Shown: positions 4,327 through 44,105 of the stretch, piece after piece
Layout of the letters: the number at the start of each line of letters is the position of its first letter
Numbering within the stretch: position 1 is the stretch's first letter
Assembly: GCF_000303155.1 (NCBI RefSeq)
Contig: NC_018719.1
Location: 310,001-374,000 of the forward strand
From: Candidatus Nitrososphaera gargensis Ga9.2
Lineage (GTDB): Archaea > Thermoproteota > Nitrososphaeria > Nitrososphaerales > Nitrososphaeraceae
Length of the DNA: 64,000 nt
Direction of reading: 5' to 3'
Position numbers and translations under genes: made by a program
Notes under the pieces: model-generated
What the model was told of the DNA's origin: nothing
The model's database searches: none
Seen by the model: the letters and a program-made list of their open reading frames with translations, nothing else

Positions 4327-4704
4327 ATGATGCGGACGGGCGAACAGGATAGGAAAAGAAGCAAGAATGCCAGTGATGTAACTTTTCCTGCTGCTGTATT
4401 TGCGATTCTGATTGCTGCTTTAGTCCTACTACTACCAGCCATTTCGGTTTACGCCCAAACAGTTAGCAATGAGGAGCATGCAGACGGAGAGCAAACAATG
4501 ACAGCAACAGAGCAGCAGCACGAAGAGGCTGGAGGCGAACATGAAAAGGCAGATTGGGTTGGTCCCGTCATAGCCGGAGCCATGATAGCTACGTCAACCA
4601 TAACTTATGAGACGTTAAAGAGGAGAGCGATAAGAGAGGAAGAGAAGAAAAAGGGTAGCACTGCTGGAAAGGAGAAAGACAAAAGCCAACACGGGGCAGC
4701 ATGA
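4327..4704 (+). CDS. two-span membrane protein in the CcdA locus
   Basis: The 125-residue protein starts one base after the CcdA-like stop. It has a helix at about residues 19-37 ending SVYAQT, which could also be a signal peptide, then a Glu/Gln/His-rich acidic linker, then a short hydrophobic segment (VGPVIAGAMIATSTITY) and a highly charged tail. It is probably translated with the upstream gene. No catalytic motif or family is recognised; the His/Glu-rich linker (EHADGEQ, QQQHEEAGGEHEK) could bind metal, which is inference. Confidence 0.6.
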   Translation: MMRTGEQDRKRSKNASDVTFPAAVFAILIAALVLLLPAISVYAQTVSNEEHADGEQTMTATEQQHEEAGGEHEKADWVGPVIAGAMIATSTITYETLKRRAIREEEKKKGSTAGKEKDKSQHGAA

Positions 4705-4753
4705 TTGCAGCTGTGGCGTATTTTAATACGATAGAATACAAGTAAAGTCGCAG

Positions 4754-5107
4754 GTGTATAGAAAAATGGCAAAGCCAACTACAGCTTCAAATGTGCAAGA
4801 TACAAACCCACAAAATTTTGACGGCATAATAAATTCCAACACAGTCACGGTGGCAGACTTTTGGGCAGAGTGGTGTGGGCCATGCAAGCAGACTGAACCA
4901 ATGTTCAGAAGAGTTGCGGACAAGTATTCTGAAAAGGCTGCCTTTGTAAGAGTTAATGCAGATGAAAATCAGGAATTGGTGCAGAAACATGGCGTGATGT
5001 CTCTTCCGGCATTCCTTGTTTTCAAAAACGGCCAAGTAAAAGAATCGGCGTTCGGTGGAATCGGACAGGGCAAGCTAGAAGGCATGATTCAGAAACAATT
5101 GTTATAG
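4754..5107 (+). CDS. trxA: thioredoxin
   Basis: The 117-residue protein has the complete thioredoxin fold signature: VADFWAEWCGPCKQ with active-site Cys at about residues 41 and 44, the cis-proline segment SLPAF, and VFKNGQ. There is no signal peptide, so it acts in the cytoplasm. GTG 4754 gives MYRKMAK; ATG 4766 is a likely alternative start. It follows the CcdA-like gene and is the natural electron donor for it. Confidence 0.93.
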   Translation: MYRKMAKPTTASNVQDTNPQNFDGIINSNTVTVADFWAEWCGPCKQTEPMFRRVADKYSEKAAFVRVNADENQELVQKHGVMSLPAFLVFKNGQVKESAFGGIGQGKLEGMIQKQLL

Positions 5108-5941: not shown

Positions 5942-6220
5942 ATGACAGGTATATTGTCAAATTTTGAGCTTGACTATTTGAGGGGCAAGGTGCAGCTGGA
6001 CGAAAAAGCTGCATACAACATGAGATACTTCCTTAAAAGGAAGCTTAAGGACCTAGCCTACCTAGAATTGCCATTGCTAATCGACTATGAGCGAAGGTCA
6101 AGTACTTCGGTAATGAAGAAAAACGAAAGCGTTATAATCTTGCGGGAGTCAGTATTTTGCCATGAGCGAAAAGAGAACAATGCCTGTATGCTTTACGCCA
6201 GAACAGCTCAAGATGGTTGA
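5942..6220 (+). CDS. short protein with integrase-N-like motif
   Basis: The 92-residue frame begins MTGILSNFELDYLRGKVQL and contains MRYFLKRKLKDL and LELPLL. The same spaced pattern occurs in the N-terminal fragment of the integrase at 35.8-36.2 kb (EIDWLLGKKQ, YRIKSDIKKKL, LELPLL) and in a decayed gene at 60.4-60.7 kb. The first 55 residues look genuine; the remainder, overlapping the downstream gene, is less certain. It may be a stand-alone copy of this domain or an integrase relic. Confidence 0.5.
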   Translation: MTGILSNFELDYLRGKVQLDEKAAYNMRYFLKRKLKDLAYLELPLLIDYERRSSTSVMKKNESVIILRESVFCHERKENNACMLYARTAQDG

Positions 6221-14068: not shown

Positions 14069-14234
14069 CCCGAGCTGTCATGCCTAGCTGACGATGAGTA
14101 TTTTAACATTTAGCTACTCGCCTTGTGTAAAAATGGCAGGTTCAAACAATATAAAGACAAACGACTGAGCCAGAAGCTTTAGCTGGCTATCGAATGGTAA
14201 AGATGAAACAAACAGACAGACTTTTCCGAATCTA

Positions 14235-14588
14235 TTACAGGTTTGACTCTTCAATTGCAGGTATAACTTTGTCCATCATAATGCTGTCAACATTCTTGGT
14301 ATCTGCATCAAATGACAAGAGCAACAGGTGATTGTTTGCCAGTGGCACTGTAACTCTTATCAGCAGCTCATAGCGCGTCAGCGCATACTTCACTTTTCCT
14401 ATCTTGCTCTCCCATACTTGTCTTGTAGAATGGCGAATGGTAGCAAATAGCGCGTATCTCTCTGTTTCTTCAAATGTCATCAACGGCTTTAGGGTTTTTC
14501 GGTACTTGCTTGCGATAATGTATCCAAGCTTATTAGCAACAGCACAAAAGCGAATTGATTTATCTAGAGATAATATCCGTTCCGGCAA
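14235..14588 (-). CDS. thaumarchaeal conserved protein (DUF6659-like)
   Basis: The 117-residue soluble protein begins MPERILSLDKSIRFCAVANKLG and contains ASKYRKTLKPLMTFEE, ATIRHSTRQVWESKIGK and VPLANNHLLLLSFDAD. This pattern recurs in a lineage-specific family that is present in many copies in Nitrososphaera-type genomes; I recall it as DUF6659, with moderate certainty. The fold looks like a mixed alpha/beta sensor domain. Function is unknown; it is an isolated gene. Confidence 0.65.
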   Translation of the reverse strand: MPERILSLDKSIRFCAVANKLGYIIASKYRKTLKPLMTFEETERYALFATIRHSTRQVWESKIGKVKYALTRYELLIRVTVPLANNHLLLLSFDADTKNVDSIMMDKVIPAIEESNL

Positions 14589-32376: not shown

Positions 32377-33315
32377 TTATCGCATGCGAAAGTGCACATA
32401 GCCTCTGTTCTCAAGTAACCTCTTTCCGACAAAGACGTCGCCGGCCCCTCTTTGGACCCTGCCTATGACATGCAGGGCAGTTCCTGCTTTCCTTGCGGCG
32501 GCCATCGCCTGCTTTAGCTTCGATCTCGGGATCGTCGCCACGATCTCGTACTCTTCGCCCCCGTGAAACACCAGCTCGTGCGCATCAAGACCGTTTTCTT
32601 GAGCAAACTTCTCCACCCCTTCTGCGGCCGGCACATTTTCAATTGCAATGTTGACTCTGCTCTGGCTTGCCAGCTCGTAGAGCGATATAGCAAGGCCATC
32701 GCTTGAATCAATAGATGATGAAAAATATTTTGCCAATGCCAGACCAAAGCGCTGCCTGGGCTTTGGCACAAGCACAGACTCGGCCGCCTGCTTTTTGAAT
32801 GCCCCTGTGGCCACTGTGTTCTGCATCAGGATTGCAAGGCCGGCGGGCGGCAGGCCAAACATGCCGGATACTACCACAAAGTCGCCCGGTCCAGCTCCCT
32901 TCCTTGTCGGGATCTTGCCGCTGCTGGCAAAGCCTACCATGCTGCAGTCAATGACAAGCTCGTTAGCCTTGTTTGTGTCGCCGCCCACTATCTTGACTCC
33001 AAATTCCTTTGAAGCAATTGCAAAGCCTTCCGCAAGCCCCTCGACGTACGGCCGGGTGCGGTTCTCTGGCAAGCCAAGCGATATCATTGCTGCATGTGGC
33101 CTGACGCCCTTGGCAGCAAGGTCGCTGACGCATGAGACAATACTCTTTCTGGCAATCTGCCATGCCTCCATGCTATCTGGCACGTCGGTGCTTGCGACCA
33201 GCATGTCTGTTTTGAAAACGACACCCTTGCCAAGCAGCACGACATCGTCAAGGTCGGCTATGCCAAGCTTGTCCGCAAAGATCCTGATGATCTCTTTTTC
33301 ATCTAACTTGGTCAT
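32377..33315 (-). CDS. thiL: thiamine-monophosphate kinase
   Basis: The protein has the PurM/ThiL fold: MTKLDEKEIIRIFADKLG, VVLLGKGVVFKTDMLV, SCVSDLAAKGVRPHAAMISLG, KIVGGDTNKANELVIDCSMVG, SSIDSSDGLAISLYELA and VFHGGEEYEIVATIP. ThiL makes thiamine diphosphate from the monophosphate. I choose ATG 33315: the frame is open to 33438, but that part overlaps the upstream mutase gene and lacks family features. The 17-base overlap with the mutase 3' end indicates an operon. Confidence 0.92.
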   Translation of the reverse strand: MTKLDEKEIIRIFADKLGIADLDDVVLLGKGVVFKTDMLVASTDVPDSMEAWQIARKSIVSCVSDLAAKGVRPHAAMISLGLPENRTRPYVEGLAEGFAIASKEFGVKIVGGDTNKANELVIDCSMVGFASSGKIPTRKGAGPGDFVVVSGMFGLPPAGLAILMQNTVATGAFKKQAAESVLVPKPRQRFGLALAKYFSSSIDSSDGLAISLYELASQSRVNIAIENVPAAEGVEKFAQENGLDAHELVFHGGEEYEIVATIPRSKLKQAMAAARKAGTALHVIGRVQRGAGDVFVGKRLLENRGYVHFRMR

Positions 33316-34597
33316 ATGCTGCCTGGACCTTTTCGCTTGCATCCTTGAAGAGTGCCTGCGCCTTGCCGGCTCTGGACTCGACAGAGACTCTGATCGCGTG
33401 CTCGGTGTTTGATGGCCTGACCAGCACCCACGAGTCATCGTCTATTATCGCCTTGACGCCGTCTTCGGTCATTATAGAAGACGCGTCGCGCTTGAAAATA
33501 TCGGGCAGCTTTTCAATCACTTTTTTGTGAAACGCAGACTCGGCCGTTATCTTTGACCTTATCTGCACAAACTGCGAAGCAAATTTCAAGCATGAATCTA
33601 TCGTCTTTTTGTCAAGGGTCGAAATCGTGGCAGCTGCCAAGAGCCCGTCGCGGCACATGTTGAACTTGGGCATGATAAAACCTGCGCTACTTCCCTCGCC
33701 CCCGGCCTCCGCGTCTACCTCAAGCATCTTGCTGACAACGTTCGCCTCGCCCACCTTGGAGTATGATATTTTGCCTTTATGGTCACGGACGTACTTTTCT
33801 ATTGCGACGCTGGTGTCTATGCTGGTCACAAACTTTTTCATGCCCATCTCAAGTGACCTAGCCACGCACAGAAGCAGGGTCGCGTCCGGGTTTAATTTTT
33901 CTCCCATATTGTTGACCACTACAAGCCTGTCGGCATCAAGATCGAGCGCAAAGCCGTGGTCTAGCTTGTTTGCAGTTACAAGTGCGCGCAGATCCGCAAG
34001 CTCGTCCGCGGTAGGATCGGGGCCCCTTGACGACACGCCTGCGACGCCGTTAATGCTGTGGTACTGGTGGCCCAGCTTTTTGAACAGTCTTTCGCCATAG
34101 CCACATGCGGCTCCGCCGCCGGGATCGATTCCGACCTTAACCTTCGCGCCGCCTTTTGCAACGTCTGCCACTTCGTCCACATAACGCGAAGAGATCCGAA
34201 ACTCGCTCCCAAACTTGCCTTCGCAGCCGCCTACCGACTTTAACATCTTGGCAAGCTCGCGCTCAAAAAGTCCCCTGCCCTCGATTATGAACTTTAATCC
34301 GTTCCATTCTAGCGGGTTGTGAGATGCCGTTATTATCACACCTGCGCCGAACCTGCGCGCCTCCCGAAACGCCGCCGGTGTGGGAGCAACGCCCAGATTG
34401 TAAACATCGACGCCTCCTGCCATCAAGCCTGCCACAACAGTCTGGGCGATTATCATGCCAGACGGGCGGGTATCTCTTGCGACCACACACTTGCCAGATT
34501 TTATTACACTGGCGAATTGGCTTGCGAATATGCTCACTTCATGCAGGTTGAGGTCCTGCCCGTAAACCCCTCTGACGCCCGAGATCGATATCTTCAC
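33299..34597 (-). CDS. glmM: phosphoglucosamine/phosphomannomutase
   Basis: The 432-residue enzyme starts MKISISGVRGVYGQDLN and has the phosphoserine loop GVIITASHNPLEWNGLKF, the metal loop LDLDADRLVVV, the sugar loop GGEGSSAGFI and the phosphate-binding region VRPSNTEHAIRVSVES. It moves phosphate between C1 and C6 of hexose or hexosamine phosphates for glycan and nucleotide sugar supply. The archaeal family mixes GlmM and ManB activities, so the exact substrate is open. It overlaps thiL at its 3' end. Confidence 0.88.
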   Translation of the reverse strand: MKISISGVRGVYGQDLNLHEVSIFASQFASVIKSGKCVVARDTRPSGMIIAQTVVAGLMAGGVDVYNLGVAPTPAAFREARRFGAGVIITASHNPLEWNGLKFIIEGRGLFERELAKMLKSVGGCEGKFGSEFRISSRYVDEVADVAKGGAKVKVGIDPGGGAACGYGERLFKKLGHQYHSINGVAGVSSRGPDPTADELADLRALVTANKLDHGFALDLDADRLVVVNNMGEKLNPDATLLLCVARSLEMGMKKFVTSIDTSVAIEKYVRDHKGKISYSKVGEANVVSKMLEVDAEAGGEGSSAGFIMPKFNMCRDGLLAAATISTLDKKTIDSCLKFASQFVQIRSKITAESAFHKKVIEKLPDIFKRDASSIMTEDGVKAIIDDDSWVLVRPSNTEHAIRVSVESRAGKAQALFKDASEKVQAAYDQVR

Positions 34598-34644: not shown

Positions 34645-35714
34645 CTAATGCTTTAACCGTGGGATGAAAGCAAGCGTCAGATATTTTAGTTACTTACCAT
34701 GTACCAAAAGGCAGGTCTTCTGAGGAAACCGCATGATAAGGTGCTACAAATTCAGGCTAACCCTACAGAGCATCAAGTCAAAATCTTGAATGACACCATT
34801 GAAACATGCAGACATCTCTACAATAACTCGCTTGGAGAAAGGAGTGCAGGTTGGGGCATTGGATATTGGGAGCAGACGTACATTTTGCCATTAAGGAAGC
34901 ATGATAACAAATACTACAAGTGCACAGTCAAGTCTTACAGGATGTATTGTCGAGGCTTGATAAGGCGTATCCTGCATTTTTCAAAAATATAATGAAATAT
35001 CCGAGATTCAAACGAAGCGAGAAGTATAATTCTTTCACGTATCCACAGTATATGGCGGCTTCAAAATCAACAGAAACCGTCTTGTCGAACTGGTTGACAC
35101 TCAGCGACGGCAAAATACACTAAATGTCAGAGCTCATGCGAAGAAGATCAGGAAGCTCCAACGAAATCTTGTAAGGAAAAAGAAGGGTTCTAAGAACCGA
35201 GAGAAAGCAAGGATTCAACTATCAAAAGCATGGCGACAAGTAGGAAGACACAGGGATGATTTTGTGCACAAGACATCAAAAAATGGTGGCAGATGAAGGC
35301 TACACTTTTTGGTGTACTTGAGAAGCTGAATATCGCTACAACATGGTCAAGAGCCATCATTCTCTCTCTAGCACAAGCAATAATGGATATATGCCACTTG
35401 GGGAAAAAGCTGCGCGAATATACACTGCCTACAAGGTAGAAAAGCGCGGTCGACAGGCAATTGTTGTCAATCCAAATGGAACTTCGCAGAAATGCTCCAG
35501 ATGCAGATTTGTGGTTGAGAAAGACCTGTCTGTACACACACATCAATGTCCAAGCTGCGGGCTAACAATAGAGACTACAATGCAGCTTTGAACATACTGA
35601 AATTGGGCTTGGAACGAGCCCATGCTGAGAAGCAGCCAATACTTGTCCGACAAAGGATAAGCAAGTTTGCTTTTATGAAGTAAGAAGCCACTGTCTTAAG
35701 ACGTGGGTAGTCCA
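34645..35714 (+). mobile_element. decayed TnpB-only (IS605/IS1341-type) element
   Basis: The coding relic at 34699-35683 is followed by a right-end hairpin: CCAC at 35688-35691, GTCTT and AAGAC in the middle, GTGG at 35703-35706, then GTAGTCCAC. This palindromic 3' end is typical of archaeal IS605-family OrfB elements and is where the guide (omega) RNA is encoded in active ones. The left border is estimated from TTAACCGTGGGATG near 34654. No tnpA is present. The end lies 50 bp before tRNA-Thr. Confidence 0.65.
34699..35683 (+). pseudogene. tnpB: TnpB (OrfB, RuvC-like nuclease), frameshifted
   Basis: In three frames the sequence gives the TnpB order: KVLQIQANPTEHQVKILNDTIETCRHLYNNSL, a middle part (LVRKKKGSKNREKARIQLSKAWRQ), GVLEKLNIATT, VEKRGRQAIVVNPNGTSQKCSRC and CPSCGLTIE, then RDYNAALNILKLGLERA. 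The zinc finger and the last RuvC Asp are kept, but several frameshifts break the protein and the first RuvC motif is damaged. It cannot encode an active nuclease. Confidence 0.8.
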
Positions 35715-35763: not shown

Positions 35764-35837
35764 GCCCTAGTAGCTCAGCCTGGCAGAGCGAAGGTTTCGT
35801 AAACCTTAGGTCATGGGTCCGAATCCCATCTAGGGCT
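35764..35837 (+). tRNA. tRNA-Thr(CGT); integration site
   Basis: GCCCTAG pairs with CTAGGGC, D-arm GCTC...GAGC, anticodon arm AAGGT-TTCGTAA-ACCTT, T-arm ATGGG-TCCGAAT-CCCAT; discriminator T fits archaeal Thr. No intron. Its 3' half is repeated at 43167-43202 (direct) and 43111-43151 (inverted), and an integrase N-terminal fragment reads into it from the right, so it served as the chromosomal attachment site for the downstream element while staying intact. Confidence 0.95.
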
Positions 35838-36193
35838 TCTGTATTCTCTACTGTCTCATGAAGCGGTTTACTCAACCTTCCCTCTGCCAGCTTCGCTACC
35901 AGGGTGGGCTGCGGCTGAGGATTCGTCCTCAGATTCTGAGGATTAGCGCTCAGACCAAAGGTTGAACAATCATATCCTAACTTTGCAAGCAAAGGCAGCT
36001 CCAGATTCTGGAATGTCTGCAGCTTTTTCTTTATGTCGCTCTTTATCCGATATTCATAAGCCTTTGAAACCTGCTTCTTGCCAAGCAGCCAATCTATCTC
36101 TGTCCTTGTAAGAAAAGCTGGCGAGCTTTTTTTCATAAGCTCAAGAGCCTGTATAGTCGTATTTAGCTTTTGAGGAGGTAGATTGTGAGCCAC
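35800..36193 (-). CDS. integrase N-terminal fragment (intN)
   Basis: From ATG 36193 the frame reads MAHNLPPQKLNTTIQAL, TRTEIDWLLGKKQVSKAYEYR, IKSDIKKKLQTFQNLELPLLAKL, then a low-complexity stretch and EALDGIRTHDLRFTKP, which is the tRNA-Thr sequence read on the minus strand. This is the N-terminal domain of a thaumarchaeal tyrosine recombinase cut at the att site; the frame runs on by chance to 35723. The catalytic residues are in the distant C-terminal part. Possible start context and domain are intact. Confidence 0.75.
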
Positions 36194-36284
36194 TAAAGTT
36201 TATGGAGGGTTCAGCTTGTCCAAGCCGAGCTTTCTAAATAGTGTTCAAGGAAGCAAAAAGAAAGGATAAACCAAAGGATAATGA

Positions 36285-36374
36285 ATGACAGGTAAATCAC
36301 CACGAAAAACAAAAAAGAGAAAAAAGCTTCGAAATACCCGAGGCGAAATAAAGGAACGAAGGGGAAGTAAATAA
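36285..36374 (+). CDS. 29-residue highly basic peptide
   Basis: ATG 36285 gives MTGKSPRKTKKRKKLRNTRG followed by EIKERRGSK. The extreme Lys/Arg content could reflect a nucleic-acid-binding peptide of the element, divergent from intN, or only an A-rich spacer. There is no other support. Confidence 0.2.
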   Translation: MTGKSPRKTKKRKKLRNTRGEIKERRGSK

Positions 36375-36443
36375 CTCTAGTCCGGAATAGCGCTTGATAA
36401 GGCTACTAAATGTATATTATGGAACAACCAGCAATTACTATTA

Positions 36444-37183
36444 TTGAGTGAAAGGGAAGCGTCAAGACGCATCAGGTTTAGGAGCTTTTTACTCATAGTA
36501 GTCGTTCCCATCATTGTCTCAGTCATGTTAGTGCAGATCAATCCCTTTCTATTGTTGAAACCTTATGGATCGGCATACTATGCTGACGGTCTGCAACCGG
36601 CTCATGCACTTAATCAGGGCTACAGTGTCCCAATAGACATAATGATAGTCAATAGCCCGACACAAAAAGTGCCAACTCTGAGCCGGAATTTCGGATCATG
36701 GTTGACAATGCCAACAGGGTTTGGCATAAGGCCGGTGTGACATTCGTAGTGCGGTCACTTGATTATAAAGAAGTGCCCGATGAAGTACTAAACAGTCTTG
36801 ACAGCTTTAACAACACTGCGCTCAAGCAATTCGGCAAGGCTGTACTTGCTGATAGATTCGAAGATGGCATAATAGATGTTGTATTTCTAAGATCATTTTC
36901 CAATGGGATCGAAGATCTAGCGATAATTGAGGGAAATATTTCAATCGCTTTTCTGAGTGAATTGGAAAGTATCGATTTTATCTCATGGACACTTGCACAT
37001 GAACTTGGGCACACACTAGGACTGCTCGACGTGTTTGAGTTCGACAATCTGATGATAAGGGTAGATGGTACTTCTATGCTCAGATTTTCGTATAGGAATG
37101 CCTACCTACCATCGAACCTTACAGACCAGCAGATAGTAATTATCCGTAATACTATCGAAGCAAAGTCGTTTTCAATTTCATAG
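36444..37183 (+). pseudogene. membrane-anchored metzincin-like metallopeptidase, one frameshift
   Basis: The first part has a transmembrane helix at residues 13-33 (FLLIVVVPIIVSVMLV) and PIDIMIVNSP. The second, in another frame, continues MVDNANRVWHKAGVTFVVRSL and carries THELGHTLGLLDVF-type motif LAHELGHTLGLLD, the HExxHxxGxxD metal site of metzincins. The frames change between about 36660 and 36700, at an A5 run (acacaaaaagtg). All catalytic residues survive, so this is a recently broken gene or an assembly error. Outward-facing protease is likely. Confidence 0.7.
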
Positions 37184-37191
37184 AGGAGCGG

Positions 37192-37515
37192 GTGCTTGAA
37201 AGCTATATGTTCCCTGAAAAGCTAAAGAAGGCAATTCAACTACTGGGTGATGATGTAAACTGGAAGATAGTTGAATTGCTTGCAGACAGAGGCAAGGTTA
37301 CCTGGCAAGAACTTCTCGATGGATCAGGAGCAGTACACGCAAAAACGCTCAACTTCCAGCTGAAAGAACTGATTGGAGTTGGACTTGTAGATAGATACGA
37401 GGTTGGCCGTTCACTCGAAGGCAACACAGGGATTCTATCATTCGATCTTAGTCCGTGGGGAAAGGATATAGTTAGAGGCTTGCAGTCAGCATTGAATACC
37501 AAACAGAATGAATAG
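37192..37515 (+). CDS. ArsR-like winged-helix regulator
   Basis: The 107-residue protein begins (ATG 37207) MFPEKLKKAIQLLGDDVNWKI, continues VELLADRGKVTWQELLDGSG and KTLNFQLKELIGVGLVDRYEV with a wing, and ends SPWGKDIVRGLQSAL. This is a single winged helix with flanking helices, typical of archaeal element-encoded regulators. TTG 37192 would add five residues. It follows the peptidase relic by 8 bp, so they are likely one transcript. Confidence 0.7.
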   Translation: MLESYMFPEKLKKAIQLLGDDVNWKIVELLADRGKVTWQELLDGSGAVHAKTLNFQLKELIGVGLVDRYEVGRSLEGNTGILSFDLSPWGKDIVRGLQSALNTKQNE

Positions 37516-37858
37516 TTGTCCGAATTCCTAGAGACAGACTGCCTATTCTGTGCAAAAATCAGGTCAAACTAAATGGTTTAAAGGTAAACCAATTACAAAG
37601 CTTGTTCCCGCCGCACTTTTGCCAAAAAGCAAAAAGCTAGAATATTGCTCCTTTTGCCAAAACAAGCCTAATTCTTGGAGATCCTATTTTTCCATAATTT
37701 TGTTGAGTGACCGAGGATCAAATAATATCCGAAGCACTCAGACTGCTGGCCGTCAAGGCCACCGTGGTTTTGATACGCCAAGCAGTACCGTAGGAAAGAA
37801 GAAAGACAGTGCAGTGTAGGCTATCTCTAGCAACACTAGAGATAATGCTTCATTTGAT

Positions 37859-37881
37859 GGCCCTCTTACAATAAGAGGGCC
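37859..37881 (+). terminator. hairpin plus T-rich tract
   Basis: A perfect 10-bp stem (GGCCCTCTTA at 37859-37868, TAAGAGGGCC at 37872-37881, loop CAA) is followed by tcaacttttttcttttttt. A second hairpin, ATCTCTAG/CTAGAGAT, lies at 37823-37843. Archaeal termination mainly needs the T tract; the hairpin may protect the 3' end of the regulator transcript. Confidence 0.55.
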
Positions 37882-38110
37882 TCAACTTTTTTCTTTTTTT
37901 CACGGACTTATCAGGATGGAAACATTATTTGCTTATGCCCCTACCTGCGCTGACTGCCAATATGAATGGGCGTCTAGAGGCCTTTTATTCTTTCAAACCT
38001 GAGAGCTTGGTAGTTATGTAGAAGACTATTGTTACATGTAACAGAACGTACAATTTCCTTAGTACTGCGCGTTTGTTCCTTCGTTATTCTGTCAGAAAAT
38101 ACTAGGTTAG

Positions 38111-38158
38111 TTTTGAGCTTATTCATCCCATTTTTAATGGGAATGATTAAGCTCAAAA
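38111..38158. repeat. 48-bp imperfect palindrome
   Basis: The left arm TTTTGAGCTTATTCATCCCATT and right arm (reverse) TTTTGAGCTTAATCATTCCCATT differ only by two single-base indels. It can form a 22-23 bp hairpin or cruciform with almost no loop. No coding frame uses it. Candidate for an origin, resolution or regulatory structure. Confidence 0.6.
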
Positions 38159-38457
38159 CCATCAAACTGGTTTTAGGGGCGAACGAACAGACAGAAGGAC
38201 AAAAATGATAGTTTTTTGTCCGTTGTTTGTCTGTCCGGGAACCTAACTAACTATCAAAAGGTTAAGATCATGTTCAGTCGGTCAGTCAGTTAGTTAGGAT
38301 CTTACCCGCAAGACTGGTTTGACTGACAGCATGCCGAACCTTCTGAGACATTGAGGTTAGTGCAATCTGGTTGCTGGAAGTTTAAAGAACACTTTTACAA
38401 ACCTCAACTGATCATAAAAAACACCATTCAGACAGTAAAAATGATGGAAACCGGCTG

Positions 38458-38672
38458 CAACTTGGTGTAAACTGTTTGGAAACTTTTGGAAAACCTGCTG
38501 CAACTATCTATCAACCTGCGGAAAATAGATATAACCACAAACTGAACTTGCGAAAAACGCCATCCATAATTGAAATTTAGCTGCAACTCGTGGCAAACCT
38601 GTGGAAACTGAGTGTCAAAAGTTGGAAACTTGGCGGAAAACCACTGTCAACTGGTTGAAGGTTGCGCAAACC
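38458..38672. repeat. helically phased CAACY/AAACY repeat array
   Basis: A five-base core CAACT, CAACC, AAACT or AAACC recurs at 10-11 bp steps: 38458, 38469, 38480, 38491, 38501, 38512, a weaker middle part, then 38584, 38595, 38605, (38616 CAAAA), 38626, 38638, 38648 and 38668. The period equals one DNA turn, so all cores face one side of the helix. It ends right before the TATA-like box at 38672 and the two-gene GNAT unit, which suggests cooperative protein binding or bent DNA. Confidence 0.65.
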
Positions 38673-38713
38673 TTATAATAGTAGTTTCCAGAAACTATAT
38701 CTGGATAAAGGAA
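38672..38713 (+). promoter_or_regulatory. promoter of the GNAT two-gene unit
   Basis: CTTATAATAGTAG (from 38672) is a good archaeal TATA box about 35-40 bp upstream of ATG 38714. It follows directly on the phased repeat array, so any protein covering the array would sit next to the TBP/TFB site and could control it. Confidence 0.55.
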
Positions 38714-38863
38714 ATGTCCACTACTCCAGAGATGAAGGTTCCAGTATTGGAGGGCAAGGATGCTGAAGAGTTCCAGAAATATAATTCTAGAGTATTGACG
38801 CTGGAGGAAAAGGCATCACTTAAGAAGGCCCACGACTTTTACAAGAAACACTGCAGAGTCTAA
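38714..38863 (+). CDS. 49-residue partner of GNAT enzyme, putative antitoxin
   Basis: From ATG 38714 the frame reads MSTTPEMKVPVLEGKDAEEF, QKYNSRVLTLEEKASLKKA, HDFYKKHCRV. It is small, charged and helical after residue 15, with an extended start. The stop overlaps the start of the GNAT gene (TAATG), indicating translational coupling. Length and order fit an antitoxin upstream of its toxin, but it is not a ribbon-helix-helix protein of the TacA type. An upstream in-frame GTG at 38612 lies in the repeat array and is unlikely. Confidence 0.55.
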   Translation: MSTTPEMKVPVLEGKDAEEFQKYNSRVLTLEEKASLKKAHDFYKKHCRV

Positions 38864-39384
38864 TGAAGGTAGATCCTGAGAAATTATCCTTTGACCTATT
38901 CTCAACTAGTGATAACTTTTCTGCCCTTGATTTTACCGAAGATGACGGCACAGATCCATTAGGAATTGACGATTTTATCAAGAATAGAGTCCAAGACTAT
39001 CTGCCAAACAAGTTGGCAAGCATTTGGACAGTCAGATACGAGTCTGTAATCGTAGCATATTTTACAACTTCTATGTTTGCAATAGGATATAGGCAACTAT
39101 TTGACGATGAGCATGTAAAAGAAGTGCCAATTGTCTCATACCCCGCTGTATTGCTTGGAAGAATGGGTGTTCACAAAAAAGAAAGAGGCAGAGACATAGG
39201 TTACTGGATTTGCCAGTTCTGTATTGGTCTGGCGCAAGAGATAGGCAAGAGAATAGCCTGCAGGTACATTGTTTTGCAGACAGTCAAAGCCAAGTCAACA
39301 TATTATGAAAAGAAATGCATGTTCCACCAAACAAAGAGAGTGAATCTTGAAGGAAAAATTTGGATGTATAGAAGGTTATCATGA
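38863..39384 (+). CDS. GNAT acetyltransferase, TacT/AtaT-like
   Basis: The 173-residue protein has the GNAT order with VPIVSYPAVLLGRMGVHKKERGRDIG: the acetyl-CoA loop (ERGRDIG), then YWICQFCIGLAQEIGKRIACRYIVLQTV and STYYEKKCMFHQ. The combination LLGRMGV-x-GRxxG, IGxRxxxxx and YYEKxxF near the end is that of TacT-type toxins, which acetylate aminoacyl-tRNA. It is coupled to the small upstream gene and lies in an integrated element. Toxin role is inferred from sequence pattern and gene arrangement. Confidence 0.7.
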   Translation: MKVDPEKLSFDLFSTSDNFSALDFTEDDGTDPLGIDDFIKNRVQDYLPNKLASIWTVRYESVIVAYFTTSMFAIGYRQLFDDEHVKEVPIVSYPAVLLGRMGVHKKERGRDIGYWICQFCIGLAQEIGKRIACRYIVLQTVKAKSTYYEKKCMFHQTKRVNLEGKIWMYRRLS

Positions 39385-39492
39385 TAGCGTCGGAGTACTG
39401 GTTAGGAGCTAACTTGCAGCTTAACAAAAGCTGTTAAAAGCTGATATATTAGTTAGCGTAATGCATGAAATCTGTGAGGTAATAGCAACCCA

Positions 39493-40944
39493 ATGTTCTT
39501 TGCCTTCCCGCATACGCGTGCGCGCTTTCAGTACGCGCATATACGCTTCTTTGAGCGGGAATTTGGCCTAGAATACACCAAGTTTGAAAACAGAAGGATG
39601 CAGGAAGTGTATCAAGCCAAAACCCACAAGTTGTCCGAAGTATCTGGCTATGTTGTCTGGCTGCGCCGCAACAAGGCATTTCTGATCGTACCAACACTGA
39701 CAAGCCCTGAGCCATCTGTTTTTTGCGAAATACCGGATTGGATTAATTTAGAGATTCCGCCAGATAGAGCCTTTGTAGTAACAAAGGGCAAATGGGGGTA
39801 CAAGGTTGCTAGAGGCGTAGAGCCATCAGCTTCGCCCATTTTCACAGTTGACCACTACAAGGTAACGAGGCCTGATCTTGGGAGTATCAGGCCAGATAGT
39901 ACTTACCATGATTTTCGTGAAATATTGTTTGAGGGTTTAGCAGACGTGTATCCAGAAGTCCAAGACTTGGTAGCTCATAGCATTATAAGCTCGCCAAAAA
40001 CACTGGACAGGCTTGGCGGGCTGACTTTATCAGTCTACAACGAATCAAAGGCTACTTCAAGGGTACTATTAGCATACCTGAAGAGATTCTTGCCAAAAGA
40101 GTTCCTCCGCCAACAGGCTTTACCATCTTTCAGTAGAGCAGATAGGTCACAGCATAAGGCTTGATCCTTTCCCTTGGATGTACAAATCCTTTGATGCAGA
40201 CAGGGAACTATCAAAAGACGCATTGACACTCTTGTGCAGACCATCAGACTTTTCAGTACCAGACGAGGTCATGATCTCGCTAGAAAGTGACTATTCAAAG
40301 CCAAAATCGCTACGAGACCCGCCCGCCGCCATGGCCGATGTTCCCATAGTTGCTGCAAACACACTTGAAAAAGGCGAGCAGTGTATGATCCATCCCCTGA
40401 CGTTCCAAAATTCATAATAGCGACACATCTAGTTCCGGTTAGCCTGCCGGCATCGTTGTACGAATCTAGTCTTGGTTATCTGCAGGAGAAAATAACTGAA
40501 ATTTCATACAAGTATCCACAATTTAGAGCCGAGCTTGGAAGGGGTGGAATTTTAGACCTTGATATTCATGGAAAGCCATTGTCGCTGCTGCACCTTGGAC
40601 TATCCGATGGCAGGTCTAATTCGCAGGTTGAAGTAACAAGACAGACTATCGAGAATGCACTCTCAATCTACGACCGCAACATGGACAATACTCTAGCGAT
40701 ATGGCAAGATGCATTTCCGGGAGACGGTAAACTAGACTTTTCGGGAACTGCACCCGAGCAGCGTAGAATTGCCGGCTACATTTACCATCATGGCCCTGCC
40801 ACACGCGAACAGATGTACGAGGCTCTCAAGAATGAAATGTCTCGGGACTCGTTTTACAGGTGGTGGAAGGACTTGTATGATCATGGCGGCATATACGAGA
40901 AAGTACCTGGAATATTTGACATAGTTCCACATTATAGGGAATGA
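39493..40944 (+). pseudogene. large element protein with C-terminal winged helix, two frameshifts
   Basis: Three coding-like blocks follow one another: 39493-about 40130 (frame 1; FFAFPHTRARFQYAHIRFF, IISSPKTLDRLGGLTLS), about 40110-40380 (frame 2; VEQIGHSIRLDPFPWMYKS) and about 40380-40944 (frame 1; DPSPDVPKFIIATHLVPVS, ending in RRIAGYIYHHGPATREQMY and FYRWWKDLYDHGGIYEKVPG). Together they make about 480 residues. The last 70 residues form a winged helix. The two frame changes compensate each other. No family is recognised; replication or maintenance protein is possible from its place beside the repeat region. Confidence 0.6.
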
Positions 40945-40984
40945 ACGGTTGCACAAGCATTCGTGATTTTGTAAAAAAAGAAGG

Positions 40985-41156
40985 GGTTGCCTAAGTTGCG
41001 CTACTGTTGCATGAACGTCTTGCATTCACAAGTGCGGCCGTTAGGCAAAAGTCTGCTGCATCTACCATTCTGAGGATGCTCCATCCTCATATGGTAGCAG
41101 CTTGTATTGTTGCATATGTCGTATGGAGACATTGCAACAAAGATAATACGGCAACC
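40985..41156. repeat. nested inverted-repeat (fold-back) segment
   Basis: Outer arms GGTTGCC (40985-40991) and GGCAACC (41150-41156) enclose further complementary pieces (TGTTGCA and its partner TTGCAAC) and a central hairpin: GCTG-CA-T-CTACCAT...GAGGATG, loop CTC, CATCCTC..ATGGTAG-CAGC (41055-41101). No gene is seen in 40945-41318. It could be a MITE-like insertion or a structured RNA between convergent genes. Confidence 0.45.
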
Positions 41157-41318
41157 TGCTTAAAGGAACTAATTGGCCTAACAAAATTTAGTCCGATAGT
41201 ATATTCGACATTTGTCTACTTATATAAAAGAACTAATTTTTTACTCCCTTAGGGGGAGAAGGTAATATTCAGAGCAATTCAGTATCTAGATCAGTGTAAT
41301 GAAAAAATGCCGTTTGTA

Positions 41319-42218
41319 CTAGATAAACTTGATTGCGCGCCCATCCACAGGCTGAGCCAATATTTCTATATCTACCACACAAGGTTCAGCATTTTTTGCA
41401 GTGATTACAATTTGAGCTTTGGTTGGAGCCAATATTCTGTTCCTGTGAGGAGGCTGCTGCCAGCCATCCTCTGTGGGAGCAATAACTCTCGGCAGCGCAT
41501 CCGGGGATTGATAATGCTTTTTTACTTCGGTTCGAGCTTTAATGGAATCCTCATATACCTCAGTTTGTTTGGTGTAACTGTTTGTGCCACTTGTTGGCAG
41601 CTTTGATACCTCTGTGCGAATATCATTAACTATTTGAGCTTGATCACCCTTGAGTATTGCACATAGGTCAACATATTCTACCGAGTTTGCGTTTATCGTC
41701 ATTGTGTGGCCGGAGGTTGGGCTAATCCAAGCCACCTTTTCCTCATTCCCGTCGATTCTTAGGACAGCTTTACAATTCTCTGCGGCGTTCCTTCCGTCGT
41801 TCCTAACTATTATTCTATTTGCAACATATTCAACGAGATACTTTGTCTTAATGGAAGGAATTGCACCCAATAACGGGCTGCTGACACTGTAGACCTCGCT
41901 ATGAAACGCCCTTAGAACTGGGGATTTGTCCTTGGCAATCCTTAGAATTGGCCTTCTATAATGATCAAGAAGTCTATTGGCAAAATAAAGCGCAAATCCC
42001 GCAACTAGACCTCCTATGACAAACTGAAGTGATAATTGAATCCACTGAACTTGCATGCTGGCTACACTAGCTTCTGTATTCGGCAGATTCTGATTTGAAG
42101 GAATGCTTGTACCAGTTTCGTTCACATTTTCTTGTGCATAAATGTGCTTCCCTGGTTGGTTTACAAGTAAAAAGAATGCGATAATAGTAAAAGCGTTCAA
42201 AAGGGCGTTAGCATACAT
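41319..42218 (-). CDS. element-encoded membrane protein
   Basis: The 299-residue protein has an N-terminal signal or helix (ALLNAFTIIAFFLLVNQ), a polar stretch with NET and NTEAS, a transmembrane helix near residues 62-85 (LSLQFVIGGLVAGFALYFANRLL) and a cytoplasmic or external beta-rich domain (IKTKYLVEYVANRIIVRNDGRNAAENCKAVLRI) resembling general receptor-like folds. No family is recognised. It is the last intact gene before the integrase remnant. Confidence 0.65.
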   Translation of the reverse strand: MYANALLNAFTIIAFFLLVNQPGKHIYAQENVNETGTSIPSNQNLPNTEASVASMQVQWIQLSLQFVIGGLVAGFALYFANRLLDHYRRPILRIAKDKSPVLRAFHSEVYSVSSPLLGAIPSIKTKYLVEYVANRIIVRNDGRNAAENCKAVLRIDGNEEKVAWISPTSGHTMTINANSVEYVDLCAILKGDQAQIVNDIRTEVSKLPTSGTNSYTKQTEVYEDSIKARTEVKKHYQSPDALPRVIAPTEDGWQQPPHRNRILAPTKAQIVITAKNAEPCVVDIEILAQPVDGRAIKFI

Positions 42219-43110
42219 ATATTGTGGCTTATCGCGAGACCTCTAAAAGATTATCGCATATGCTGAATCTTTTGCCATGTTAGGGAATAGCTAGCTCGTG
42301 ATGCAGTGATGCTATTATCCTTCGAATTTTTTTTGCAGTTGTCCTTAAAGTCTGGCCTGAAGTAGTGTCTTGCAAAAACCGACTTTGGGATTCTGCCTTG
42401 TAACAAATCGATGAATTCTGTCTCTATCCTTTTCGTTCTTAAGTAAGTTGCAAAGATGCTCCTGCAGTTTTTCATCTTCATTTCCATATCCCTTTTCGTG
42501 ATATAGAGTCGTAGAGCATTTTACCCACAATTCTTGCAGCTTCTGGCAAGTTCAATAACCTCTTGGTTTATGATACTGATATACGCTTTCTTTGTCCTCC
42601 TAATGAAAATCTCAGGATACTTGTAATGTTCAAGCGTCATCCAGTCTTTTTTAAGATAGTTATCAAGGTCAGTCTGAATAAGGTTAATACTCTGGCAGGC
42701 TTCGTCGGGTCTCGGACCAACAAGGGTGGCATATATGAGAATGTTGCCATACTCATTTGGTATCTTTGAAAAAGTAGCCTTCAGCCATTGCATCATTGCT
42801 GAGTAGTTATTTCCGTTGTTCTCCATCATTGAAATGAATACATCCATGTCACTACCTACAGTCCACTTCAAATCATATCGTTGTTTGATAGCTTTCCAAG
42901 TGTCATAGCATCCGTAGTATTTGGATAGGTTCGAGAGAGCTCTCATGGCATGCTGTCTATTCTTAGGAGTTAAAGTTAAAGCTCAGATGCGTTCTGTGTC
43001 TGCAATATGTGGCCGTATCTCCGGGCAAAATTAATCAGCTGACCAGATGTTTTCTTTCTCCTCTCTTTCAATATCCAACTTTCAAACCCTTTGAAAGAAG
43101 GAGTACCGGC

Positions 43111-43151
43111 ACTAGATGGGATTCGGATCCATAACCTAAGGTTTACGAAAC
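43111..43151 (-). repeat. inverted copy of the tRNA-Thr 3' half beside attR
   Basis: On the minus strand these 41 bases match tRNA-Thr positions from the anticodon stem (GGTTTCGTAAACC) to CATCTAG with two mismatches. With the direct copy at 43167-43196 they form a 30-bp inverted repeat with three mismatches and a 26-base spacer. Both copies share GGATCC where the tRNA has GGGTCC, so they derive from the element rather than from the chromosome. Confidence 0.75.
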
Positions 43152-43166
43152 CGAACGAGAACCCAA

Positions 43167-43202
43167 CCCTTAGCTCATGGATCCGAATCCCATCTAGGGC
43201 TT
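43167..43202 (+). repeat. attR: direct copy of the tRNA-Thr 3' end
   Basis: CCTTAG-TCATGG-TCCGAATCCC-ATCTAGGGCTT repeats the 3' end of tRNA-Thr (35802-35837) with two internal substitutions. It marks the right border of the element and starts the intC frame on the minus strand. It lacks the 5' half of a tRNA and cannot be a functional tRNA gene. Confidence 0.85.
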
Positions 43203-43319
43203 TTGCGTTTTTTATAATGTTAGAAAAAATACTGCCAAAATGTGTCGTCAAAATATAGTAGAATGTTTGTTTCTTGAATAACTTATATGTGATCTTCGGG
43301 AGAACTATCCCGAATTATT

Positions 43320-44105
43320 TTGATAGAGCAAAATTGTCATGCAGCATGCATAGTTGACTTAGACGGTTCAGGGTTTTCTGCAATTTATTCCAGGATCCAC
43401 CAGTATCTCCTCAAAGGCTATGCCGTGGCATATGTTGCAGAGGATAACACAGCGACCGCAATACAAAACATTAAAAATTCCGGAGTTGACGTTGACCACT
43501 TCCTACCAACTGGCGCTCTTCAGGTAATTGACAGGGACTTGTACTACAATCCAAACAAGGAACTTGAGCCACAAAAATTACTTGATCAGTTTTCCAAGAT
43601 AGTAACTCAAGTTGACTTCCAAAAGTTCAAGGGGATGCTAGGAATTGGTTCAGCTGGTCCTGCCTTTTTCCAAAAAGGAAAACTTGAACCACTCTTGGAA
43701 TATGAACACAAGATTGGCAAGAGATTTAAGGTGCCGGTAGAGATCATCTGCTGCTATCGGTCTAATGACATCAGGCAACTAGAATTCAGCCATCTTGTAT
43801 CTGTCATTACTTCTCATGCATATGTGATTACCTCAGAAGGGACAGAGCATAAGGGACTGAACTCTGACGCAATTATTTCATTTATCGCTGCTGGAATTAA
43901 CAAATCATTGTGTGCAAACATATCTGACATTATATTAAAAACCTTGGAAATTGCATATGGCATAAAGAAAGAGCGAATAATATCACAACCGAGAATTTTT
44001 AAAAATGCCTTGGAAAAAGCACTTGGCATCACTTCTTCCAGAATTGTCCTAGCTGAAATAGAGAATGAAATCCGGTGCGCTCTGCTGGGCGACAATAAAA
44101 CGTAG
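43320..44105 (+). CDS. MEDS-domain (DcmR-type sensory) protein
   Basis: The 261-residue protein begins IEQNCHAACIVDLDGSGFSAIYSRIHQYLLKGYAVAYVAEDN-like (split here as residues 3-21 and on) and contains GVDVDHFLPTGALQVID, matching the MEDS sensory fold, a RecA/KaiC-like domain found in methanogens, methylotrophs and thaumarchaea. The C-terminal third is helical and may mediate dimerisation. It lies 115 bp outside attR, upstream of a second MEDS gene. Signal unknown. Confidence 0.7.
   Translation: MIEQNCHAACIVDLDGSGFSAIYSRIHQYLLKGYAVAYVAEDNTATAIQNIKNSGVDVDHFLPTGALQVIDRDLYYNPNKELEPQKLLDQFSKIVTQVDFQKFKGMLGIGSAGPAFFQKGKLEPLLEYEHKIGKRFKVPVEIICCYRSNDIRQLEFSHLVSVITSHAYVITSEGTEHKGLNSDAIISFIAAGINKSLCANISDIILKTLEIAYGIKKERIISQPRIFKNALEKALGITSSRIVLAEIENEIRCALLGDNKT

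Follow-up and report, generated by a model that had tools for sequence, protein, structure and literature searches.

A decayed element with a partitioned integrase in a tRNA-Thr gene of Candidatus Nitrososphaera gargensis, and inverted copies of target tRNAs in related elements

Results

The genome of Candidatus Nitrososphaera gargensis Ga9.2 consists of one contig of 2,833,868 bp (NC_018719.1), and in a stretch of 64,000 nucleotides (nt) of it, positions 310,001 to 374,000, hereafter called the window, an integrated element with a split integrase gene spans positions 35838-43202. Its target (attachment site attB), restored upon integration, is the transfer RNA (tRNA) gene tRNA-Thr(CGT) at 35764-35837 on the plus strand, as had been proposed in a preliminary description made from the letters of the sequence; ARAGORN calls this gene, and the same tRNA is found beside a phosphoglucomutase/phosphomannomutase-family gene, here named glmM, in the relatives G002, G026, G040, G041 and G042 (G denotes compared genomes, L compared loci). 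The att core on the tRNA side (35818-35838, plus strand) is identical over 21 bp to positions 43182-43202, and is embedded in a direct repeat of 50 nt with 84% identity. At the other end, tRNA-Thr is partially repeated (nt 38-74) as attR (43165-43202, plus strand), a direct copy that points the same way as the tRNA gene.

The N-terminal part of the integrase, int(N), occupies 35838-36193 on the minus strand, with its N domain at 35972-36133 (hidden Markov model (HMM) A1, E 2e-30), and the frame that starts at 36193 enters tRNA-Thr as EALDGIRTHDLR, as described earlier. The partial tRNA copy, previously placed at 43167-43202, indeed opens a minus-strand frame, which starts ALDGIRIHELR and leads to the catalytic part, int(C), at 42251-43107 on the same strand. 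Across att the two frames stay in phase, and the join reads ...VENTEALDGIRIHELRVGF...LINFARRYGHILQTQNASEL, followed by a stop. The single integrase frame that had been expected on joining the ends therefore holds across att, but further on it suffers a 1-nt frameshift (near 42980) and is interrupted by a TAA in frame (42521-42523). In view of these two lesions, a single joined integrase frame was rejected for the window copy, whose joined frame ends after ...QTQNASEL. The C-terminal motifs pointed out earlier are present, but not in the joined frame; GPRPDEAC, the arginine region, is in another frame that is reached via the frameshift, and ARHYFRP, the tyrosine motif, lies past the TAA, which precedes MKNCRSIFATYLR...LQGRIPKSVFARHYFRPDF. 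The window integrase is therefore a pseudogene, unless the sequence contains errors.

The catalytic core of the family shows invariant columns for R (GLRP) and for R and Y (HYF/HYY) in alignments A2 and A5, and the window has these motifs too, although out of frame. Pfam Phage_integr_3 (PF16795) gives 24.8-26.1 bits on the family integrase at a cut-off of 27. An AlphaFold2 model of the int(C) from G002 has a mean predicted local distance difference test score (pLDDT) of 62, which is too weak to prove a tyrosine recombinase fold, and a Foldseek search with this weak model has Cre derivatives and the SSV integrase among its top matches, none with E<0.001.

An intact counterpart is found in Centralia_MAG_167 (G002, contig JAJPHM010000061.1), where the same tRNA-Thr(CGT), likewise adjoining glmM, holds an element of 14.1 kb (L065, L193) in the same order: tRNA-Thr(CGT), int(N), about 13 kb of cargo, int(C) and a perfect 43-bp copy of the tRNA 3' half. 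Joining its ends yields one intact integrase frame of 374 codons (MVDDIKPALL...IIARR), a full-length integrase of the kind that the window copy no longer gives, and this supports the SSV-type integration suggested at first. Each window half matches its counterpart in G002 (int(N) 47% and int(C) 52% identity), and the halves belong to one protein family. Neither halves of different families nor the same genes outside a tRNA-Thr context, either of which had been named as speaking against the integration, were observed. The G002 element is independent of that in the window; it carries the type I restriction-modification genes hsdM, hsdS and hsdR (L065 10388-15763), and no shared cargo is detectable between the two.

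Alternatively, the element could be an ordinary one with an unsplit integrase, the two halves being unrelated decayed genes and the DGIRTHDLR peptides an artefact of translating antisense tRNA. Antisense tRNA does often yield open frames, and int(C) is degenerate. However, both halves have homologues throughout the family, int(N) recurs next to a tRNA at about ten tRNAs, and the joining of halves from opposite ends of the G002 element into one intact frame contradicts this explanation, which I consider hardly credible. Partition of the integrase by integration into tRNA-Thr is, in turn, close to certain.

The tRNA-Thr beside glmM is without integrase in three relatives (G041, G042 and G026), while an int(N) relic is left at the tRNA-Thr of G040, and G026 has a relic element (L067) elsewhere in its genome. 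The exact empty site that had been proposed for a search, the tRNA followed by position 43203 onward, was not found among the compared relatives. The right flank is collinear with G040 only from about 46.8 kb.

Three features that had escaped the preliminary description lie at the element ends. An inverted copy of the 5' half of tRNA-Thr (nt 2-42, 83-88%) is located at 35865-35904 (minus strand), 27 nt past the 3' end of the tRNA and adjoining int(N), in the linker of the integrase gene. Its local alignment score of 25.5 was equalled by none of 1000 shuffles, and it matches tRNA-Thr better than every clearly different tRNA in a library of 79 members. An inverted copy of the 3' half (nt 30-73, 93%) adjoins int(C) at 43109-43152 (minus strand); the right end of the window element is a quasi-palindrome of 92 nt. 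The inverted 5' half is also present in G002 and in the G026 relic, and the latter has a copy similar to the inverted 3' half as well. As the inverted 5' half is read in different phases in the window and in G002, it is the DNA and not the peptide that is conserved; conservation at the peptide level was rejected on this ground. The third feature is a pair of tandem imperfect palindromes of about 19 bp with a period of 21 bp, also in the linker (35915-35954, no strand assigned). L065, L010 (1216-1241), L033 (1205-1245), L159 and L161 (11195-11240) have palindromes in the corresponding position, and many family members have them between the int(N) domain and att, single or in tandem pairs (about 20 bp; 26 bp and perfect in L010). 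Such palindromes are possible recombinase sites.

The test for inverted copies covered 24 junctions with a whole tRNA whose 3' end faces the element. An inverted copy of part of the own target tRNA is present at 11 of these (none of 1000 shuffles was as good), which represent five target groups: Thr(CGT), Thr(GGT), Glu(CTC), Arg(CCG) and Ser(GGA)/Tyr. For Thr(CGT) (nt 2-42), Thr(GGT) (nt 3-45, with 43/43 positions identical) and Glu (nt 2-46), the copies extend from close to the 5' end across the anticodon stem-loop. Those of Arg(CCG) cover nt 49-86 of the intron-containing gene, and those at Ser(GGA) and at one junction called Tyr cover nt ~36-94, with att beginning at the T-loop. These copies may be functional accessory, arm-like sites; the 5'-arm copies would number one in attB, one in attP, two in attL and none in attR, and could bias the reaction towards integration. 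The match of the copies to their target tRNA and their recurrence in several lineages, the retention of the D-arm part in the window and G002 despite a changed anticodon loop, and the palindrome pairs nearby would all fit. Nevertheless, such a function seems improbable, as 13 of the 24 junctions are without a copy, and according to a review archaeal integrases need no directionality factor, with no arm sites reported for suicidal integrases (PMC8371274).

The integrase family is widespread. Relatives were detected with the int(N)-domain HMM in 34 of 70 Nitrososphaeraceae genomes and, with E set more strictly, in 42 of 300 genomes from the order. Relatives of int(C) occur in 28 of the 70; related int(C) genes are also present in Nitrosopumilales (L195, L196), and no relative of the integrase was found in viral contigs. 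I count target-tRNA sequence at about 55 of the 68 int(N) loci and at 26 of the 29 int(C) loci, and among the targets are Thr(CGT), Thr(GGT), Gln, Arg(CCG), Arg(TCG), Glu(CTC), Glu(TTC), Val, Ser(GGA), Ser(GCT) and Ala. Three arrangements are observed. In the window, in G002 and at Ser, Gln and some Thr(GGT) targets, att is antisense and the int(N) end has the whole tRNA; at Glu, Arg, Ala and, in L021, Thr(GGT), att is sense and the tRNA adjoins int(C); at Val and Arg(TCG), att corresponds to the 5' half of the tRNA, which is again on the int(N) side. In L159, a perfect 96-bp att (4697-4792 and 14220-14315) spans the 5' half of tRNA-Val and upstream DNA, so here the same integrase family is integrated on the 5' side of a tRNA; a thaumarchaeal survey reports one 5'-side case only (PMC6563490). 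Another int(N) half in the genome of N. gargensis itself (L118 1317-1643; genome positions 2281200-2284400) shows a sense read-through of the whole tRNA-Ser(GCT), and the window holds a second, weaker int(N)-domain remnant at 5951-6082 (plus strand, E 1.4e-8) with no tRNA called nearby.

Both att orientations occur among the relatives at Thr(GGT), att being antisense in L033 (CRAIB_MAG96) and sense in L021 (G060). Over 64 nt, of which 20 nt are spacer, these two loci are 97% identical yet inverted, while the catalytic domain is collinear. For the 100-nt block of non-tRNA spacer and palindromes in L021, a match to L114 is obtained in the inverted orientation only (score 28, the 99th percentile of shuffled sequences being 17), as opposed to the direct one (score 11.5, p 0.64), and L099 shows the same preference more weakly. 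The core and the inverted 5' half are kept beside int(C) in both L021 and L033, and in these Thr(GGT) relatives the tRNA 5' half remains at the breakpoint of the inverted block, inside the integrase gene. The simplest reading of these alignments would be an inversion that took in att, spacer and palindromes and had one of its breakpoints at the tRNA core. A different origin of the inverted halves would be template switching during replication at the palindromic stem-loops of the tRNA, or an inverted duplication mediated by hairpins there. A template switch would leave the structure 5' half, 3' half, spacer and reverse complement of the 5' half, and the 92-nt quasi-palindrome at the right end of the window element is in line with this. 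It leaves unexplained, however, why the palindromes and the spacer, which is not tRNA, are inverted in L021 with respect to L114 and others, and why copies recur at several tRNAs with their ends close to the recombination core; I regard it as unlikely.

Decay of the window element is not restricted to its integrase. The cargo includes a zincin-type peptidase (HELGHTLGL; 36444-37183, plus strand, weak Pfam match) in two overlapping frames, probably due to one frameshift, and a winged-helix/helix-turn-helix protein (37192-37515, plus strand, weak Pfam HxlR/HTH_20). A GNAT-like acetyltransferase (38863-39384, plus strand; PHROG 1758, E 5e-11) is followed by a large protein (39493-40944, plus strand) in three frames (39493-40164, 40178-40417 and 40381-40944), whose C-terminal part is an ORFan, and by a putative membrane protein (41319-42218, minus strand) without significant family match. 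The peptidase and the large protein also look broken, and frames of 100 codons or more make up 0.68 of the element as against 0.87-0.88 of the flanks. With int(C) and at least two cargo genes broken, the window copy is a fossil. The cargo had been called unusual, which is appropriate for the peptidase and the large protein, as neither query had another match among the 70 family genomes. The acetyltransferase has paralogues in its own genome and in relatives. One of these, at G000:C1:1753605-1753944 in the same genome, is broken and 89% identical across its C-terminal part of 80 amino acids.

Of the flanking genes, glmM (33299-34597, minus strand; Pfam and synteny) is separated from tRNA-Thr by a decayed IS605-family OrfB/TnpB remnant (34699-35683, plus strand), with the HTH_OrfB and TNB domains in separate frames (Pfam). 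Immediately past attR, a gene with a MEDS domain (DcmR sensory) is located at 43320-44105, and no relative of it was found downstream of tRNA-Thr in the compared genomes.

Discussion

These observations suggest the following course of events. In the circular form, attP, an antisense tRNA-Thr 3' half, lay inside the integrase gene. Upon recombination with the host gene, the tRNA was restored with 3' sequence from the element, while the integrase was split into an int(N) fused to the tRNA and an int(C) 7 kb away. Later, int(C) and several cargo genes were killed by mutations. With its integrase a pseudogene and cargo genes broken, a circle from the window copy would not re-integrate by itself, and the copy would be locked in, barring a related integrase in trans. 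As to the inverted tRNA copies, they most likely arose, judging from the alignments, when the integrase, acting at the palindromic core of the tRNA, inverted the block of att, spacer and palindromes within its own gene; the residual tRNA 5' half would mark the breakpoint, and att could in this way be sense or antisense within one integrase family. That the integrase itself does the flipping, and that flipping still occurs, I infer. In vitro, the known suicidal integrase IntpTN3 inverts DNA flanked by tRNA sites in opposite orientation, and the minimal site that it uses, nt 2-44 of tRNA-Leu (PMC5495485), is close in extent to the anticodon-core copies found here (nt 2-42, 3-45 and 2-46).

Several observations weigh against this explanation. 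The inverted block is seen in one relative only, L021, when compared with three others, and the linker of L033 (as L075) matches above background in the direct orientation too, the inverted one being slightly better. A screen of 128 pairings across other targets gave one further weak match and no general pattern, and no general spacer homology between sense- and antisense-type junctions was found beyond the Thr(GGT) group; as this screen produced no further clear inverted pair, the generality of the inversion would be an extrapolation. The 13 junctions without inverted copy count here as well, and the altered anticodon loop of the copy in the window and G002 means that recombination there has possibly been lost. 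The frameshifts in the window, finally, could partly be sequencing errors. I hold the joint claim, a decayed partitioned element together with an integrase-mediated inversion mechanism, to be at best slightly favoured.

A more far-reaching possibility, put forward tentatively and with more doubt than confidence, is that thaumarchaeal suicidal integrase genes hold an invertible att cassette with two inverted tRNA-derived core sites, between which the block is flipped by the integrase, the halves in the window being the footprint of one isomer. If true, an element could present att sense or antisense within its own reading frame. The inverted copies and the inverted block offer a concrete, testable route by which self-splitting integrases could change their target or orientation. 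An inversion at the tRNA core would differ from the published model, which invokes an exchange between the int(N) and int(C) of two elements.

The suicidal integration system has been described as a development of hyperthermophilic archaea (PMC8371274), whereas the family observed here has another N domain and is widespread among the ammonia-oxidising archaea of soil. The defining feature, an att within the integrase gene that is split on integration, is present in the window and in the intact relative G002. As in the SSV1-type integrases of SSV1, SSV2, pTN3 and pT26-2 (PMC8371274, PMC5495485), att is a tRNA 3' half within the integrase gene, and integration cuts the gene into int(N) and int(C) while the tRNA is restored. 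The C-terminal motif LQGRxPxxVFxxHY of the family resembles IQGRKPTRVLTQHY of SSV1, although its Phage_integr_3 score of 25-26 bits is just below the cut-off, as compared to 207 for SSV1. The N-terminal domain SSV1_ORF_D-335, with 118 bits in SSV1, is absent from the window and G002 proteins, which have another N domain instead. The use of both att orientations and the inverted tRNA copies likewise set this family apart; self-comparison of the SSV1 sequence and inspection by eye, made without the host tRNA, showed neither a long inverted repeat nor a copy of a tRNA 5' half at attP.

Within the Thaumarchaeota, the aforementioned survey reports one split SSV1-like integrase, in NitEve-E3 of Candidatus Nitrososphaera evergladensis (PMC6563490), which is probably L157, judging from its MCM gene and split integrase. 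On this identification, both it and the window element are thaumarchaeal elements with a split SSV1-like integrase, L157 being integrated at tRNA-Arg with an int(C) 48% identical to that of the window. It differs in that att is sense and the tRNA is at the int(C) end, and in being larger, with an MCM gene and an open, undecayed int(C). The element of Centralia_MAG_167 shares the tRNA-Thr(CGT), the att half and its orientation and the inverted 5' half, but differs from the window element in its intact integrase halves, its length and its restriction-modification system. The window element, although some of its cargo is ORFan, is no solitary case but one of a widespread family, and on the basis of these comparisons it is filed as a decayed member of a thaumarchaeal variant of the suicidal-integrase elements.

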